From Ferrimonas sp. YFM (lineage in GTDB: Bacteria > Pseudomonadota > Gammaproteobacteria > Enterobacterales > Shewanellaceae): 64,000 bases of DNA. The stretch is taken from the NCBI RefSeq assembly GCF_030296015.1, contig NZ_AP027368.1:1116001-1180000 (forward strand), given 5' to 3'. Position numbers and translations under genes: made by a program. Numbering within the stretch: the first letter of the stretch is position 1; each line of letters opens with the position of its first letter. This document shows, piece after piece, positions 47,341 to 53,175 of the stretch. Below the pieces are notes generated by a model. That model was not told the origin of the DNA and made no database searches. It was given only the letters and a program-made list of their open reading frames with translations.

Positions 47341-48075
47341 GTGTATCGAGCGTTGTTGGCTTTATTAGGAAGTTGCCGGGATCTGCTGCCCATCGTTCTG
47401 GTGGTGGCTCTCTTTCAATTGGCGGTGTTGCAACAGCCGCTGCCCAGTGTCATCGACATCGTCCTGGGAATGGGGCTGGTGGTCATTGGGTTGACACTTT
47501 TCGTATTTGGCCTGGAGATGGGCCTGTTCCCCATAGGTGAAACCCTGGCTCAGGCCTTTGCCCGTAAGGGCGCCCTGGTGCCTCTGCTGCTGTTTGCCTT
47601 CCTGCTGGGGTTTGGCACCACAGTGGCGGAGCCGGCGCTGATTGCCGTGGCCGATGAGGCCGCCGAAGTGGCGGCCGCCGGTGGCCTGCTGGCTCAGACG
47701 GTAGAGGCTCAGGAGAGCTATGCCACTCAGCTGCGGCTGACCGTGGCCCTCTCCGTCGGCTGCGCCATTCTGCTTGGGGTGATACGCATCCTCAAGGGCT
47801 GGCCGCTGCATAAGCTGATCATCGGCGGGTATGTCATCGTCATGGCCCTGACCATGATCGCCCCCAAGGAGATCATTGGCATCGCCTACGACTCCGGCGG
47901 CGTGACTACCTCCACCATCACCGTGCCTCTGGTGACCGCCCTGGGGGTGGGACTGGCCAGTTCCATCAAGGGAAGAAACCCCATGTTGGATGGCTTTGGT
48001 CTCATCGCCTTCGCTTCGCTGTTGCCGGTGCAGTTTGTTCTGATGTTCGGGGTGGTGCGCACATGGATTGGCTGA
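47341..48075 (+). CDS. DUF1538 membrane protein, first of the pair
   Basis: 244 residues from GTG at 47341, AGGAG 5 bases upstream; an ATG at 47302 would add 13 residues. Six to seven hydrophobic segments. Two family motifs stand out: [11 protein letters not shown] near 90-100 and [15 protein letters not shown] near 185-199. The second gene has both too, so the two proteins are paralogous and likely form a heterodimer; in other bacteria the domains are fused. Predicted inner-membrane transporter or channel; the substrate is not known. Linked with a PII-like and a CBS protein. Confidence 0.85.
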
Positions 48076-48821
48076 TTGAGATTTTTAACACCCTCATCGA
48101 CACCCTGGGTGATGTGGTGCCCATCGTCGCCGTACTCTTCGGTTTTCAGTACCTGGTGCTCAAGCGTCCGGTGCCCCACCTGAAACAGGTGCTGGCGGGC
48201 TTTGTGGCGGTGATCCTGGGCCTGGCCCTGTTCCTGGTGGGATTGGAACGGGCGCTGTTCCCCCTGGGAGAACTGATGGCCACTCAACTGACCAATCCGG
48301 AGTTCCTCGGCATTGAGGGACAGGGGAGTTGGCAGGATTATTACTGGGTCTATCTGTTTGCCTTTGCCATAGGCTTTGCCACCACCATCGCCGAACCCTC
48401 TCTGCTGGCGGTGGCCATCAAGGCAGAGGAGGTCTCAGGGGGCGCGATCCGGCCCATGGGCCTGCGGCTGGCGGTTGCCCTGGGGGTGGCCATTGGCATC
48501 GCCCTGGGGGCTTACCGCATCGTGGTGGGCGACCCCATCCATTGGTATATCCTGGCGGGCTATCTGGTGGTGGTGGTTCAGACCACCTATGCTCCCAAGA
48601 ACGTGATACCCCTGGCGTACGACTCAGGGGGGGTGACCACCTCCACCGTGACCGTACCCCTGGTGGCGGCCCTGGGCCTGGGGCTGGCCAGCACCATTCC
48701 GGGCAGAAGCCCAATGATTGATGGCTTTGGCCTTATCGCCTTTGCCAGCCTGTTTCCCATGATCAGTGTGATGGGCTATGCCCAGTTAACCGCCCTGATT
48801 CAACGAGTTTCGAAGAGGTAG
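48063..48821 (+). CDS. DUF1538 membrane protein, second of the pair
   Basis: 252 residues, start overlapping the end of the first gene by 13 bases (out of frame). It carries the same motifs ([11 protein letters not shown] near 105 and [15 protein letters not shown] near 185) and the same [15 protein letters not shown] end-segment. The loop between helices 2 and 3 differs. Both proteins show conserved Glu-Pro and SGG-TTST segments within membrane, as in ion-coupled carriers. The gene is followed 3 bases later by the PII-like gene. Confidence 0.87.
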
Positions 48822-48824
48822 AGC

Positions 48825-49175
48825 ATGCGCTTTAAACTGATCATCGCCTTCGTCGAGGAGGATAAGAGCGATCAACTGGTTGAGGCGGCCCGTGATGCCG
48901 GTGCCACCGGGGTTACCCTGATCAACCACGCCCGCGGGGAAGGACTCAAACCCAAGAAGACCTTCTTCGGCCTCCATCTGGAGGTGCAGAGGGATGTCCT
49001 GCTGTTTGTGGTGGAGGAGCACCTGGCGCGCAACATTCTGGAGAGTTTGGCCGAGGTGGGTGAGTTTGACAGTTCGCCGGGCACCGGCATTGCGCTGCAG
49101 CTGGATATAGAGGATGTCGTGGGCGTCGCCCACCAGATTGAGAGCCTGTCAGAACGGGTTGGAGACGAGATATGA
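48825..49175 (+). CDS. PII-like signalling protein
   Basis: 116 residues with the ferredoxin-like fold pattern of nitrogen-regulatory PII proteins: first strand MRFKLIIAFVEEDK, helix DQLVEAARDAGATGVTL, and a T-loop region with GEGLKPKKTFFG. The classical uridylylation Tyr (YRGAEY) is absent. Such PII-like proteins (SbtB, CutA-, PstA-type) bind adenine nucleotides and gate a partner membrane protein. GTAGAGC precedes the ATG. The stop overlaps the CBS gene (ATGA). A DUF1538 partner is implied by the operon. Confidence 0.85.
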   Translation: MRFKLIIAFVEEDKSDQLVEAARDAGATGVTLINHARGEGLKPKKTFFGLHLEVQRDVLLFVVEEHLARNILESLAEVGEFDSSPGTGIALQLDIEDVVGVAHQIESLSERVGDEI

Positions 49176-49570
49176 ATCAGGAACTGATCAAGGTAAAGGA
49201 TGTGATGGCCCAGAAGTGGGTGATGCTCGATGGATTGAAGACGGTGTCCGAAGGGCTGGAGGTGCTGCGTAAGCACCACGCCGAGGCGCTGATCATCAGC
49301 AAGCGTCATGAGAACGACGAGTATGGGCTGGTGCTGCTTTCTGATATCGGCAAGAAGGTGATGGCCCGGGACAAGGCACCGGATAGGGTCAACCTCTATG
49401 AGATCATGTCCAAGCCGGTTCTGCCTGTTCATCCGGAGATGGACATCCGTTACTGCGCTCGCCTGTTTGAACAATTTGGCATTAATCAGGCTCCGGTGAT
49501 TGAAAACCATGAGGTAATTGGATTAATCTCCTATACAGAGATGGTGCTTCAGCAGAGTCTCCACAATTAG
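49172..49570 (+). CDS. CBS-domain pair protein
   Basis: 132 residues consisting of two CBS motifs: 8-62 (VKDVMAQKWVMLDGLKTVSEGL...) and 75-130 (IMSKPVLPVHPEMDIRYCARLF...). This Bateman module senses AMP/ATP or other adenosyl ligands. It overlaps the PII-like stop by four bases. A second energy or nucleotide sensor in the same operon suggests that the DUF1538 pair is controlled by cellular energy state. Cytosolic; no enzymatic domain. Confidence 0.88.
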   Translation: MNQELIKVKDVMAQKWVMLDGLKTVSEGLEVLRKHHAEALIISKRHENDEYGLVLLSDIGKKVMARDKAPDRVNLYEIMSKPVLPVHPEMDIRYCARLFEQFGINQAPVIENHEVIGLISYTEMVLQQSLHN

Positions 49571-49681: not shown

Positions 49682-49714
49682 AAAAAAAGCCCGCCCAATC
49701 CAGGCGGGCTTTTT
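49682..49714 (+). terminator. Terminator 1 of the triplicated hairpin (end of the DUF1538 operon)
   Basis: AGCCCGCC CAATCCA GGCGGGCT with A7 and T5 flanks. Confidence 0.88.
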
Positions 49715-50000
49715 GCTGTCAGTTATCCCCATCCCACCTGTGGCTTACCCTGTAGGTCGCGCTTCTGCATGAGTGCGCGACGCCGTTTGAGTCATACGCA
49801 GGGCATAAAAGCCCGCCCTATTCAGACGGGCTTTTCGCTGTCTGTCATTCCCATCCCAGCGTAGACGGCGGTTTTGCGGAAGTGCTTACCTTTGTTGCTG
49901 TCAGCCATTCTCATCTCACTTCAGGCCTATCCTGTAGGTGGCGCTTGTGCAGGAGTGCGTCAAACGCCGGGCAAAAGAAAGCCCGCCAATTGGCGGGCTT
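49715..50000. repeat. REP-like segment with repeated terminator hairpins
   Basis: Non-coding gap between CBS gene and cymA. Hairpins of the same GCCCGCC family recur at 49807-49835 (GCCCGCC/GACGGGC) and 49979-50000 (AAGCCCGCCAATTGGCGGGCTT, a perfect palindrome). Between them the motif CCTGTAGGT.GCGCTT appears at 49749 and 49931, each preceded by CCCATCCCA/CTCATCTCA-type sequence, and the first contains GTCGCGC...GCGCGAC. The structure resembles Pseudomonas-type REP (GTAGG-led) elements. Confidence 0.55.
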
Positions 50001-50100: not shown

Positions 50101-50694
50101 TTAACCCTTGGGGTAGGGGTGCGCTACGCCTTTGTGGCAATCGATACAGGTCTTACGCTTGTCTTCAGCCTTCTTGAAGTTACGCTCGTGCATCTTCTTG
50201 GCGATCTTCTTCATGGACTCAGGCTGGTTCTCATAGATGTTGGAGTGGCAGCTGGTACAGGTGCGGGAATCGATGGAACGCAGGTAATCGCGAGCCAGGT
50301 CAGCCTGCTCTTTGCGGTTCGCTTCCAGCCACTCTTGAGTGTTAAAGCCATCAATGGTCATGTAACCGATGATGTCCTTGGACACGATGATCTTCTTCAC
50401 CAGGTACTCGAAGCCACCTGGAGGCAGGTGACACTGGGCACAGGTCACAGTGATGCCGGCGCTGTTGTTGCCGTGGCTGGACGCCAGAACCTCATCCCGC
50501 AGGGAGTGGTTGGAGTGGCAGGTCATACAGAAGTCGTCGGTGCTGGTGGCGTGCAGCACAACCTGGGTGCCGTAGACACCTACGCCGCCCACGACCAGGG
50601 CCAGGAAAGCACCTACTGGGATGCCCAGCAGCCATTTGGCTTTGGGCCGTTGCCATAACCGGCTCCAGGCGGAGCCTTGTTTGTTGTCAGACAT
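50101..50694 (-). CDS. cymA: Tetraheme quinol dehydrogenase, NapC/NirT family (CymA-like)
   Basis: Inner-membrane anchored periplasmic cytochrome c that takes electrons from menaquinol and hands them to terminal reductases (iron, nitrate, fumarate and others in Shewanella). The 197-residue protein has one membrane helix (22-42) and four heme motifs CMTCH (56-60), CAQCH (85-89), CTSCH (146-150) and CIDCH (183-187). It is a single gene, upstream of which a CRP-like site and a palindrome are present. NapC is an alternative name, but isolation from nap genes and the metal-reducer context favour CymA. Confidence 0.9.
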   Translation of the reverse strand: MSDNKQGSAWSRLWQRPKAKWLLGIPVGAFLALVVGGVGVYGTQVVLHATSTDDFCMTCHSNHSLRDEVLASSHGNNSAGITVTCAQCHLPPGGFEYLVKKIIVSKDIIGYMTIDGFNTQEWLEANRKEQADLARDYLRSIDSRTCTSCHSNIYENQPESMKKIAKKMHERNFKKAEDKRKTCIDCHKGVAHPYPKG

Positions 50695-50828
50695 CTCTCA
50701 TCCTCATTTTCTTTTTTTGGGGGTCGAATTCTATTCAAAACCTTAGCCGAACTTTACGAGCTTTTGCAGGTAAAAGCTGGCACCGGGGACTTTATCAATA
50801 TATTTCTTCATTCGCTGGATTATTTTGA

Positions 50829-50844
50829 ATTTGCTCCAGCAAAT
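50829..50844. promoter_or_regulatory. Perfect palindrome upstream of cymA
   Basis: ATTTGCT CC AGCAAAT, 7-2-7 inverted repeat, 135 bases before the cymA start, in an AT-rich stretch; candidate operator. The rest of the 50695-50988 gap has no credible gene. Confidence 0.4.
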
Positions 50845-50907
50845 CGCAAAAACTTTGATCTGGTCGGAAAAAATGAACCCTTCCCCTGCGAACTCCGGGG
50901 CAGATAC

Positions 50908-50923
50908 TGTGAAAAAGCTCACT
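50908..50923. promoter_or_regulatory. CRP-like site upstream of cymA
   Basis: TGTGA-AAAAGC-TCACT matches the CRP consensus halves with one mismatch. It is 214-229 bases before the cymA ATG. CRP control of cymA is known from Shewanella. Confidence 0.5.
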
Positions 50924-50988
50924 GGATCCTATTTGACAAAAAGGCGTTGTGAAGTGGGGAGAATATGGGCTTCATTGGAGAGCAAACA

Positions 50989-51016
50989 TAAAAAAAGCTG
51001 CCCCTGGGGGCAGCTT
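50989..51016 (-). terminator. Terminator after pta
   Basis: Minus strand GCTGCCCC C A GGGGCAGC followed by T7. Confidence 0.88.
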
Positions 51017-51039
51017 CTTATCGAAACCTGAGTTTCGGC

Positions 51040-53175
51040 TTATGCGTCGGCCTGGATGGCGGTCAGGGCGATGGTGTAGACAATGTCTTCCACCAGGGCG
51101 CCACGGGACAGGTCGTTCACAGGCTTGCGCATGCCCTGCAGCATAGGACCGATGGAGATCAGGTCTGCAGAACGCTGAACCGCCTTGTAGGTGGTGTTAC
51201 CAGTGTTCAGGTCTGGGAAGACGAACACGGTGGCTTTACCGGCTACTGGGCTGTCAGGGGCCTTGGAAGCAGCCACGTTCGGCATGATGGCCGCGTCGTA
51301 CTGCAGAGGGCCGTCGATCATCAGGTCAGGACGCTTCTCCTGAGCGATGCGAGTGGCTTCGCGAACCTTCTCTACGTCAGCACCCTGGCCGGAGCTGCCG
51401 GTGGAGTAGGAGATCATCGCAACGCGAGGCTCGATGCCGAAGGCCTTGGCGGAGTCGGCGGACTGGATGGCAATCTCAGCCAGCTGCTCGGCGTTCGGAT
51501 CCGGGTTGATGGCACAGTCACCGTACACCAGAACCTGGTCAGGCAGCAGCATGAAGAACACTGAGGACACCAGGGAGGCGCCAGGTGCGGTCTTGATCAG
51601 CTGCAGAGGTGGGCGGATGGTGTTGGCGGTGGTGTGAACCGCGCCAGATACCAGGCCGTCTACCTGATCTTCGGCCAGCATCATGGTACCCAGTACCACG
51701 TTGTCGGACAGCTGCTCGCGGGCAACCACTTCGGTCAGGCCCTTGCTCTTACGCAGCTCGCACATAGGAGCAACGTAACGCTCGCGGGCGGTCTCGGGAT
51801 CCACGATCTCGATGCCGTCGCCCAGGGTCACGCCCTGCTGGGCAGCCACACGGCGAACCTCTTCAGGGTTACCCACCAGCACACACTTGGCGATGCCACG
51901 CTCGGCACAGATGGCGGCAGCCTTAACGGTACGGGGCTCGTCACCTTCAGGCAGCACGATGCGCTTGTTGGCGCGACGGGCAAACTCGGTCAGCTGGTAG
52001 CGGAAGGCGGCTGGAGACAGCAGGTTTTCGCGCTTGGAATCGCTGGCCATGTTCTCGATGAACTTGCGATCGATGTGGCCGGCAACGTAGTCCTGCAGCA
52101 GTTCGATACGGGCAGAGTCATCAACAGGCACTTCGTGGTTGAAGTTCTGGATGTTCAGGGCGGTCTGCCAGGTGTTGGTGTCGACCATCATTACCGGCAG
52201 GCCGGTGTCGAACGCCTGAGCGCACAGATCCTGAACCTGCTGCTCCAGCTCATAACCGCCGGTCAGCATCAGGGCACCAATCTTGGTGCCGTTCATGGCA
52301 GCCAGACAGGCAGAAACCACGATGTCGGAACGGTCGCCGGAGGTCACCAGCAGGGTGTCCGCTTGCAGGTGGTTCACCATGTTGGGGATGGCACGGGTAC
52401 AGAAGCTCACGCGACGCAGACGACGGGAGTGCATCTCACCGGCGTTGATCAGGCGGGCACCCAGGTGCTTGGCCAGATCGGAGGCACGTGGGGAAACCAG
52501 GTCCAGGTTGTACGGTACCGCACCCAGAATTGGGATCGGGGAGTTGGCGGACAGCTGGAAGATGTCGGCGTGGTCACCGCGAACAACCTGATCGTGCTCG
52601 AACACTTCAGACAGGTCAGGGCGGGCACGGCCACGCTCATCCACAGGTGCGCCAATCTTGTTGATGATGGCACCCAGGATACGCTTGTTCTTCTTACCAC
52701 CGAACTCATCGAGGATGATCTCCAGGCGCTTCTGCACCTGGGCCGCGCTGTCGGCACCTGGGTTGATCACGAACACGATGTCGGAATCCAGGGTCTTGGC
52801 GGTCTTGCTGTTCAGGGTGTTGGCGAAGGGGTGGCTGCGGGTAGGCACCAGACCTTCAACGATCAGCACCTCGGTACCTTCATCGCCAGACTTCACCCGG
52901 GCAACAATCTCTTCCAGAAGCACGTCGGTCTCGCCGGCGCTGATGCGCTGCTGGGCGTGATCCATGGAGTAGGGCTCTGGTGGATTGATGGTGGGGGAGG
53001 TGGAGAGAATGGTGGAGGAGCGTTCTGGGCCGGTGTCGCCGGGGCGTTGCTGTGCAACAGGCTTGTAGAAGTTGACCTTGACACCCTGGCGTTCCAGGGC
53101 GCGGACCATACCCAGGCTGATGGAGGTCAGGCCGACGCCTGTGCCTACCGGAATCAACATGATAGAGCGAGACAT
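51040..53175 (-). CDS. pta: Phosphate acetyltransferase
   Basis: Reversible acetyl-CoA + phosphate to acetyl phosphate, the second half of the Pta-AckA pathway. The long form has 711 residues (E. coli 714): an N-terminal BioD-like P-loop domain ([13 protein letters not shown] near 9-21), a central DRTGG domain, and the C-terminal catalytic PTA/PTB domain from about 390 with the conserved [11 protein letters not shown] 10-bp hairpin stands between ackA and pta, 20 bases from the pta start. Confidence 0.96.

Follow-up and report, generated by a model that had tools for sequence, protein, structure and literature searches.

Textbooks describe PII proteins as sensors of nitrogen and carbon, and together with PII-like proteins they mostly regulate nitrogen and carbon transport, as in the AmtB-GlnK and SbtA-SbtB pairs. 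ClC and MgtE are examples of membrane proteins gated by CBS domains, and transporters are known to be blocked by PII-type proteins.

UmpA and UmpB of Halomonas zhaodongensis assemble into a heterodimer that works as a Na+(Li+,K+)/H+ antiporter (PMC5484666). Vesicle assays gave K0.5 values for Na+, Li+ and K+, and the cation/proton exchange was pH-dependent with an optimum at 9.0 (PMC5484666). As the Halomonas clone was active in E. coli without PII or CBS genes, neither protein is required for antiport, and the main text of that paper makes no mention of PII, P-II or CBS (PMC5484666). Cation/H+ antiport has been reported in a similar way for proteins of the RDD, UPF0118, MFS and CDF families, so assays of this type may pick up side activities.

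The umpAB locus of Ferrimonas sp. YFM

We analyzed a stretch of 64,000 nucleotides of the genome of the marine-type bacterium Ferrimonas sp. YFM (the window), in which ORF calling placed umpA, umpB, a PII-like gene and a CBS gene in this order at 47341-49570 on the plus strand. umpA (47341..48075, 244 aa) begins with GTG downstream of a Shine-Dalgarno-like AGGAG and overlaps umpB (48063..48821, ATG start, 252 aa) by 13 bases. A gap of 3 bases separates umpB from the gene for the PII-like protein (48825..49175, ATG start, 116 aa), which in turn shares 4 bases (ATGA) with the gene for the CBS-pair (Bateman) protein (49172..49570, ATG start, 132 aa). A first-pass annotation of this DNA had read the overlaps and gaps of at most 3 bases as a four-gene operon, and its coordinates were correct to the base; the spacing suggests that the four genes are translationally coupled. 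At 49685..49715 (+) the sequence shows a GC-rich inverted repeat and then a run of T, which together resemble a terminator at the operon end. The repeat listing gave the same inverted repeat on the minus strand only (49709-49693 and 49705-49689), and a promoter scan found none.

Both membrane subunits matched PF07556 (DUF1538) in Pfam, UmpA with an E value of 1.1e-65 (scored on a longer ORF from 47302) and UmpB with 3.2e-68, and at 221.3 and 229.6 bits they passed the gathering score of 22.6 bits. Their best NCBIfam matches, strong and near-full-length, were UmpA (NF041627) and UmpB (NF041628). The window pair thus resembles the Halomonas system in having two overlapping paralogous DUF1538 genes, A then B, each matching its own model. 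However, both subunits missed the equivalog cut-offs (374.8 vs 490 bits for UmpA and 367.6 vs 500 bits for UmpB), so the models do not certify the same function, and the window pair is a putative antiporter whereas antiport was measured for the Halomonas proteins. The UmpA cut-off was passed by none of the 274 genomes of our class sample, and a natural UmpA-UmpB fusion (locus L153) passed the NCBIfam cut-off only with both halves summed.

The first-pass annotation knew of no assigned function for DUF1538 and held that a characterised carrier in this family would count against its reading. The family does include such a carrier, the UmpA/UmpB antiporter (NF041627/NF041628; PMC5484666). That annotation had pictured an energy-gated channel, with UmpAB conducting ions passively under the control of the soluble proteins. 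CBS gating of ClC and MgtE and the block of transporters by PII-type proteins provide a precedent for such a design. The activity published for the family is, however, pH-dependent exchange of cations for protons with its optimum at 9.0 (PMC5484666), and we regard a passive channel as highly improbable.

The two motifs described for the paralogs, [16 protein letters not shown] and [14 protein letters not shown], were found as quoted, and the six to seven helices counted at first are compatible with the seven TMS predicted by Meng et al. (PMC5484666). Natural UmpA-UmpB fusions exist, and two of them (L152 and L153) carry PII and CBS genes of the window type. The L153 fusion gave a confident single-chain structure model (pTM 0.91), in which each subunit is split into more, partly short, helices. 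Foldseek found no PDB match for this model at E up to 0.001, the UmpAB profile matched no PDB sequence at E up to 1, and PF00999 (Na_H_Exchanger) matched neither UmpA nor UmpB at E up to 0.1 in Pfam. At these thresholds UmpAB showed no relation to the CPA antiporters in sequence or fold. A comparison of first-half and second-half profiles of a DUF1538 subunit gave an E value of 0.11, and we do not claim an internal inverted repeat.

Three residues stand out in each subunit: the Glu of the motif TTxAEP and the Asp of [10 protein letters not shown] are invariant, and an Arg is almost so. In the UmpAB alignment E103, R155 and D190 were invariant in 57 of 57 rows and E389 and D465 in 20 of 20, and in the model the invariant Glu and Asp of each subunit fall where, or close to where, predicted helices are interrupted. 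The conserved Glu, Asp and Arg are the best candidates for the ion and proton sites of UmpAB.

Conservation of the four genes and their neighbours

A profile search for operon conservation, which the first-pass annotation had proposed as a check, recovered the four families from 77 of 80 related loci, always in this order and on a single strand, with the exact 4-base PII-CBS overlap in 70 of the 77. This arrangement is therefore far beyond chance. Both DUF1538 subunits, separate or fused, were present at nearly all loci. The order also held in all 20 loci picked by hand, at roughly every third of the 69 class places listed and away from contig ends. When the 266 ORFs that flank the module in the 80 loci were clustered, no cluster covered more than 16 loci, so we take the module to consist of four genes.

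A protein of this PII-like subfamily was encoded in all 90 DUF1538 genomes of the class sample (274 genomes; hypergeometric log10 p about -70), in 112 of 116 in the phylum sample (299 genomes) and in 7 of 7 in Bacteroidota (148 genomes), the phylum of locus L095. Since the PII profile was built from DUF1538-linked rows, the direction from PII to DUF1538 is partly circular; the direction from DUF1538 to PII is not. UmpA and PII lay at most 3 kb apart in 79 of the 83 class genomes with places listed, and linkage was also seen in 4 of the 6 matching records examined, three from Bacillota and one from an Alphaproteobacterial plasmid. The CBS protein was part of the module at most Gammaproteobacterial loci, and none was seen at several others; two PII-like domains took the place of PII plus CBS in 5 of the 7 loci from Bacteroidota and in all 3 clostridial loci examined. 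These data support the earlier idea of an ion transporter made of two subunits, with PII-like and CBS genes that are more than casual neighbours. Common absence or unlinking of these genes, which would have spoken against it, was not found for PII. Relatives were encoded by none of 21 viral contig pattern matches, and no phage link was found.

The literature titles and abstract starts that were covered did not link PII to UmpAB. Within that literature the PII-like partnership is new; the antiport by UmpAB itself is already known (PMC5484666).

Exceptions to the linkage were also found. The PII-CBS pair stood intact but apart from umpAB in two genomes (G084 and G116), umpAB had no PII gene beside it in G093 (L210), and in L061 umpAB was followed by a different gene. 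Nine phylum genomes had a PII-like protein without a DUF1538 match, four of them (G147, G256, G259 and G285) with weak PII matches alone (best E 8.6e-12), and four others (G172, G218, G236 and G245) had DUF1538 without a PII match. One genome (G478) had a PII-CBS pair and no remaining DUF1538 match, and second PII-like copies (paralogs) were found in unrelated clusters.

Several neighbours were carriers or channels of monovalent cations. A CPA2 antiporter (PF00999 with TrkA_N/C) followed the CBS gene after 100 bases in L116 and after 59 bases in L230, and a CPA2 antiporter followed a lone PII-like gene after 58 bases in L265; L230 and L265 have no DUF1538 gene beside PII-CBS or PII. Upstream of umpA, a CPA1-like antiporter ended 13 bases before the gene in L162 and a channel with TrkA domains 42 bases before it in L269. 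The Kef-type CPA2 antiporters at the three loci downstream of PII-like or PII-CBS genes would share with the module monovalent cation/H+ exchange and a nucleotide-binding control module. They differ in that their TrkA (RCK) domain is fused, whereas a separate PII-like protein is the proposed regulator of UmpAB, and in that UmpA and UmpB lack a PF00999 match and a PDB fold match (E up to 0.001).

One could read the PII-like and CBS proteins as a signalling pair with other targets that shares the operon with the antiporter only for simultaneous synthesis. The near-constant PII-CBS overlap, the pairs standing apart in G084 and G116, the pair left without DUF1538 in G478 and the paralogs in unrelated clusters all fit such a pair. 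Yet few genomes had DUF1538 without a PII-like protein (none of 90 in the class sample and 4 of 116 in the phylum sample), and in L230 and L265, with no DUF1538 beside PII-CBS or PII, a different cation/H+ antiporter came next. We therefore consider this reading quite unlikely.

The PII-like and CBS-pair proteins

The PII-like protein matched P-II (PF00543) in Pfam with an E value of 9e-10 and 39.3 bits (cut-off 25), and its AF2 monomer model (pLDDT 79.4) matched PII/GlnK structures in Foldseek with a best E of 6.4e-8 and a TM score of about 0.6-0.7. Profile and predicted fold thus place it in the PII superfamily. Its best single-sequence PDB match was TTHA0516, a weak one (E 0.32) that none of the papers covered mentions. 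The T-loop region carries the motif TFFGL. We compared the family with canonical PII at R38, Q39, K58, K90, R101 and R103, the ATP/2-oxoglutarate residues, and at Y51, the uridylylated Tyr of the T-loop. None of the 53 aligned members kept R38, Y51, K90, R101 or R103, two kept Q39, and K58 aligned to gaps in all 53. T29 and G35 were kept in 53 of 53 members, G37 in 49 and G89 in 52. By these residues the protein does not appear to be a canonical PII (GlnB/GlnK). The first-pass annotation had called it nucleotide-sensing; the charged canonical residues are lost, but nucleotide binding seems possible because T29 and the loop glycines are mostly kept. Like its relatives the protein is probably a trimer. 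Three canonical PII genes are present in the Ferrimonas genome as well.

As in GlnK-AmtB and SbtB-SbtA, a small PII-fold protein is encoded beside a transporter on which it probably acts. The window partner differs in belonging to a cation/H+ antiporter family, the charged canonical effector residues and the uridylylation Tyr are missing from the PII-like protein, and the set often includes a CBS-pair protein or a second PII-like domain.

These differences bear on whether UmpAB mainly carries a nitrogen or carbon compound or bicarbonate, with cation/H+ exchange as a side activity and the PII-like protein in its usual nitrogen/carbon role. The habitual targets of PII and PII-like proteins favor this, as do the equivalog cut-offs missed by the window proteins, the fact that the UmpAB measurements were found in one paper, and the similar antiport reports for other families. 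On the other hand, K0.5 values were given for Na+, Li+ and K+ in UmpAB vesicles (PMC5484666), and the residues R38, K90, R101, R103 (0 of 53) and Q39 (2 of 53) are lost. Moreover, several of the genes next door encode carriers or channels for monovalent cations, and other flanking genes are common to at most 16 of the 80 loci. On balance we think another main substrate unlikely, albeit a more serious contender than separate targets of the soluble pair.

In the CBS-pair protein PF00571 matched the second repeat only (E 1.1e-12, Pfam). The closest solved structure was the cyanobacterial CBS-CP12 protein 5nmu (E 3.3e-23), whose CBS pair aligned with residues 6-127, and this alignment reveals two CBS repeats. 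CBS-CP12 is reported to bind AMP (PMC9406205), and the window protein probably binds an adenine nucleotide, for which AMP is the likeliest candidate. It differs from CBS-CP12 in lacking the CP12 tail and in being linked to a transporter operon instead of the Calvin cycle.

A candidate switch for cation/proton exchange

Taken together, we favor, with some confidence, the view that these four genes specify an antiporter of the UmpAB type for monovalent cations (Na+/K+) and H+, under dedicated control by a PII-like protein and an AMP-type CBS protein. Because the partnership recurs so consistently, the PII-like protein is probably the switch of the exchanger. Physical contact, the direction of control, the ligands and the transport activity of the Ferrimonas-type pair are parts of this proposal that we infer. 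UmpA and UmpB would form a heterodimeric carrier, which the PII-like protein would open or block at the cytoplasmic face in response to a small-molecule signal, probably one other than the canonical ATP/2-oxoglutarate pair. The CBS-pair protein may bind AMP, its likeliest adenine nucleotide, and thereby feed an energy signal into the same switch; a second PII-like domain would take its place in other lineages.

We put forward, more tentatively, that these proteins form an unrecognised branch of the PII family for monovalent cation and pH homeostasis, lacking the charged nitrogen/carbon residues and gating antiporters, usually UmpAB, with a fold absent from the PDB, and occasionally Kef-type CPA2 proteins. 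The natural UmpA-UmpB fusions offer single-chain targets for structural work on a fold that had no PDB match here. If our reading is correct, the under-studied UmpAB antiporters would gain a regulator open to testing in vesicle assays, and PII signalling would extend to ion and pH homeostasis in roughly one in three of the sampled Gammaproteobacteria (90 of 274) and in representatives of two further phyla.

The operon and its carrier family

The four-gene layout that the first-pass annotation had proposed at window 47341-49570 (+) proved exact, and all four proteins have Pfam matches. The first DUF1538 gene (244 aa, GTG start) overlaps the second (252 aa) by 13 bases, and after a 3-base gap there follows the gene of the PII-like protein (116 aa), which overlaps that of the CBS-pair protein (132 aa) in an ATGA. 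In the window sequence, the CBS gene is followed by an inverted repeat rich in GC and a run of T. Behind the operon, window 49685-49959 holds imperfect repeats of two lengths, 52 nt with copies 87% alike and 68 nt with copies 79% alike; the 52-nt repeats contain terminator-like inverted repeats. Genes named by eye as a NapC/NrfH-like multihaem cytochrome and a phosphate acetyltransferase-like protein lie downstream at 50101-53175 (-).

The same annotation had regarded DUF1538 as lacking an assigned function, a view that has to be corrected: NCBIfam describes UmpA and UmpB as Na+,Li+,K+/H+ antiporter subunits, and the carrier of the window operon belongs to this known family. The window proteins score clearly but below threshold (UmpA 374.8 versus 490 bits, UmpB 367.6 versus 500 bits). 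UmpB is 91% identical to that of Ferrimonas sediminum (Gammaproteobacteria), the nearest named relative among the best 80 of 589 loci. Meng et al. (2017; PMC5484666) co-expressed umpA and umpB in the antiporter-deficient E. coli strain KNabc and reported that the two subunits co-immunoprecipitate as a heterodimer and that exchange is pH-dependent over the range 6.5 to 9.5. Besides umpA and umpB, the 4.2-kb clone of that study held an MFS gene and a truncated citrate transporter. PII, P-II and CBS occur 0 times in its main text, so the carrier family was known and its putative regulators were missed by that paper.

UmpA and UmpB form one natural fusion in several lineages. The AlphaFold2 model of the fusion at locus L153 (54 rows) was confident, with a mean pLDDT of 91.5 and a pTM of 0.91. 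A Foldseek search of this model against 350,542 PDB chains found no match at E <=0.001 (best E 0.027), TM was <=0.20 among the matches listed (50 of 310), and a UmpAB sequence profile had no PDB match at E <=1; the absence of a match does not prove that the fold is new. Numbered along the fusion, E103, R155 and D190 of the A half are invariant in the alignment (57/57 rows), and the B half retains E389 and D465 in 20/20 and R430 in 19/20 fused rows. The model places E103 between predicted helices 85-101 and 104-119, and D190 close to the end of predicted helix 182-193, ahead of helix 200-214.

The PII-like partner at the locus and across genomes

A first locus set consisted of the best 80 of 589 confirmed related loci in genome contigs and is therefore biased towards the window's clade; umpA, umpB, PII and CBS genes stand in this order in 77 of the 80. 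L085, at a contig start, is without umpA, L098, at a contig end, is without CBS, and in L061 a different gene follows umpAB within the next 666 bases. The 77 include L044, where umpA is broken up over two ORFs and both the PII and the CBS ORF are short. A second set of 20 was picked by hand, in rough steps of three and avoiding contig ends, from 69 listed places in Gammaproteobacteria, and all four genes were present in 20/20. At L180:772-2026 (+), in this set, the operon is split between umpB and the PII-like gene by a transposase-like gene in opposite orientation. We annotated 64 loci, namely these 20, 20 chosen mainly as fused or divergent, 20 drawn from Bacteroidota and from further families of the phylum, and 4 plasmid records; some of the 64 loci, a small number, were already in the first set. 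The PII-like gene was present at 61 of the 64; the genomes of the remaining three (L205, L210, L211) carry it elsewhere, still CBS-paired in two (G084, G116). An apparently decayed second umpAB-PII-CBS set, with fragments in several frames, was seen at L268 (genome G533).

In the whole-genome samples, the UmpA model matched 91 of 274 class genomes, and dropping G476 (UmpA E 1.7e-4), which has no PF07556 match, left 90 DUF1538 genomes. The PII-like profile matched 91 class genomes at E <=1e-8 plus G521 at 3e-8, 92 altogether, among them 90/90 of the DUF1538 genomes (hypergeometric log10 p ~ -70). The rows behind this profile were themselves DUF1538-linked, so the co-occurrence can be read without circularity solely from DUF1538 to PII. 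Of the two PII-only genomes, G390 has a contig end ~120 bases upstream of PII, and in G478 the ORF upstream of PII ends with a UmpB-like stretch. Both places are listed for 83 class genomes; UmpA and PII lay <=3 kb apart in 79 of these and on different contigs in the other four. In G328 and G483 both stretches border contig ends or lie close to them, the PII contig of G333 opens with a piece of umpB, and in G327 no umpB was found in the 1.5 kb upstream of PII. The phylum sample (299 genomes, some shared with the class sample) contained DUF1538 (E <=0.001) in 116, the PII-like protein (E <=1e-7) in 121 and both in 112, leaving four genomes with DUF1538 alone (G172, G218, G236, G245) and nine with the PII-like protein alone. 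Among 148 genomes of Bacteroidota, the phylum of L095 (Lunatibacter), DUF1538 occurred in 7, all 7 with the PII-like protein, and 2 further genomes had a weak PII match alone (3.6e-8, 7.1e-8).

The composition of the locus varies. Window-type PII and CBS accompany the fusions L152 and L153 and the Bacteroidota locus L198 (Lunatibacter). Two PII-like domains, fused or in tandem genes, occur in 5/7 Bacteroidota loci (L199, L201-L204), and two fused ones in three Bacillota records (L170-L172). The Bacteroidota protein L200:3001-4143 (380 aa) scored for three, the third weakly (E 8e-4). One PII and no CBS was found at L150, L151, L169, L209 and L212-L214, among others; L216 ends too soon to judge CBS presence. 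These variants identify the PII-like domain as the constant partner of UmpAB; the place of a second sensor seems to be filled by either of two alternatives, one being CBS. At L200, L247 and L248, fused DUF1538 has a PII-like neighbour of 380-396 aa.

Possible ligands and further targets of the PII-like subfamily

The PII-like monomer model (pLDDT 79.4) matched PII and GlnK chains with a best E of 6.4e-8 and a TM of ~0.6-0.7. We aligned 53 PII-like members, using the three canonical PII proteins of the window's genome as residue reference. T29 and G35 (53/53), G37 (49/53), G87 (42/53) and G89 (52/53) are retained, R38, R47, Y51, K90, R101 and R103 in 0/53 and Q39 in 2/53; 48/53 share the motif [TS]F[FLM][GS][LM]. 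We take R38, Q39, K90, R101 and R103 to be ATP/2-oxoglutarate residues of canonical PII and Y51 to be a T-loop residue. Judged from these losses, the ligand is probably other than classical ATP with 2-oxoglutarate, and binding of some nucleotide is possible. Among solved structures CBS-CP12 resembles the CBS protein most, and a review reports that CBS-CP12 binds AMP (PMC9406205).

To probe for neighbouring carriers, we ran a profile made from two CPA2 proteins against all ORFs of loci L037-L116 and L147-L269; this narrow probe, which other carriers can escape, gave nine matches at E <=1e-5. CPA2 antiporters (PF00999 + TrkA_N/C) follow on the same strand at three loci. The gap to the antiporter start is 100 bases from CBS at L116:5852-8761, 59 bases from PII-CBS at L230 (genome G390) and, at L265:3533-5915 (genome G535), 58 bases from an additional PII-like gene that stands alone. 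In L162 a CPA1-like antiporter (PF00999 + TrkA_C + CorC_HlyC) stops 13 bases short of umpA, and in L269 the gap between umpA and a preceding channel with TrkA domains is 42 bases. Further-off or weaker matches were in L062 and L159 (PF00999), L241 (channel with TrkA) and L150 (TrkA-like). Such neighbours, few as they are, may point to cations, and the three CPA2 loci suggest that Kef-type antiporters might be another target of the subfamily. PII-like paralogs also occur in unrelated clusters, so the subfamily has contexts other than antiporters. In L250, L251, L253 and L256, from two families, a second paralog clusters with an SH3/coiled-coil membrane protein and an ETF-ubiquinone-oxidoreductase-like flavoprotein. 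In L257, L259 and L262 a paralog precedes tRNA-dihydrouridine-synthase (Dus)-like and NtrB-like kinase genes, an order that recalls nifR3-ntrBC (all named by eye).

Proposed regulation of UmpAB

We moderately favor the idea that the operon encodes a UmpAB-type cation/H+ antiporter in which the PII-like protein would control exchange and an adenine nucleotide would give a side input to the PII-controlled carrier. No report of the near-obligate PII-like partner was found among titles and abstract starts of the UmpAB/DUF1538 and PII-antiporter literature. Provided that the regulation we infer holds, this partner would make the UmpAB operon a new form of PII-regulated transport.
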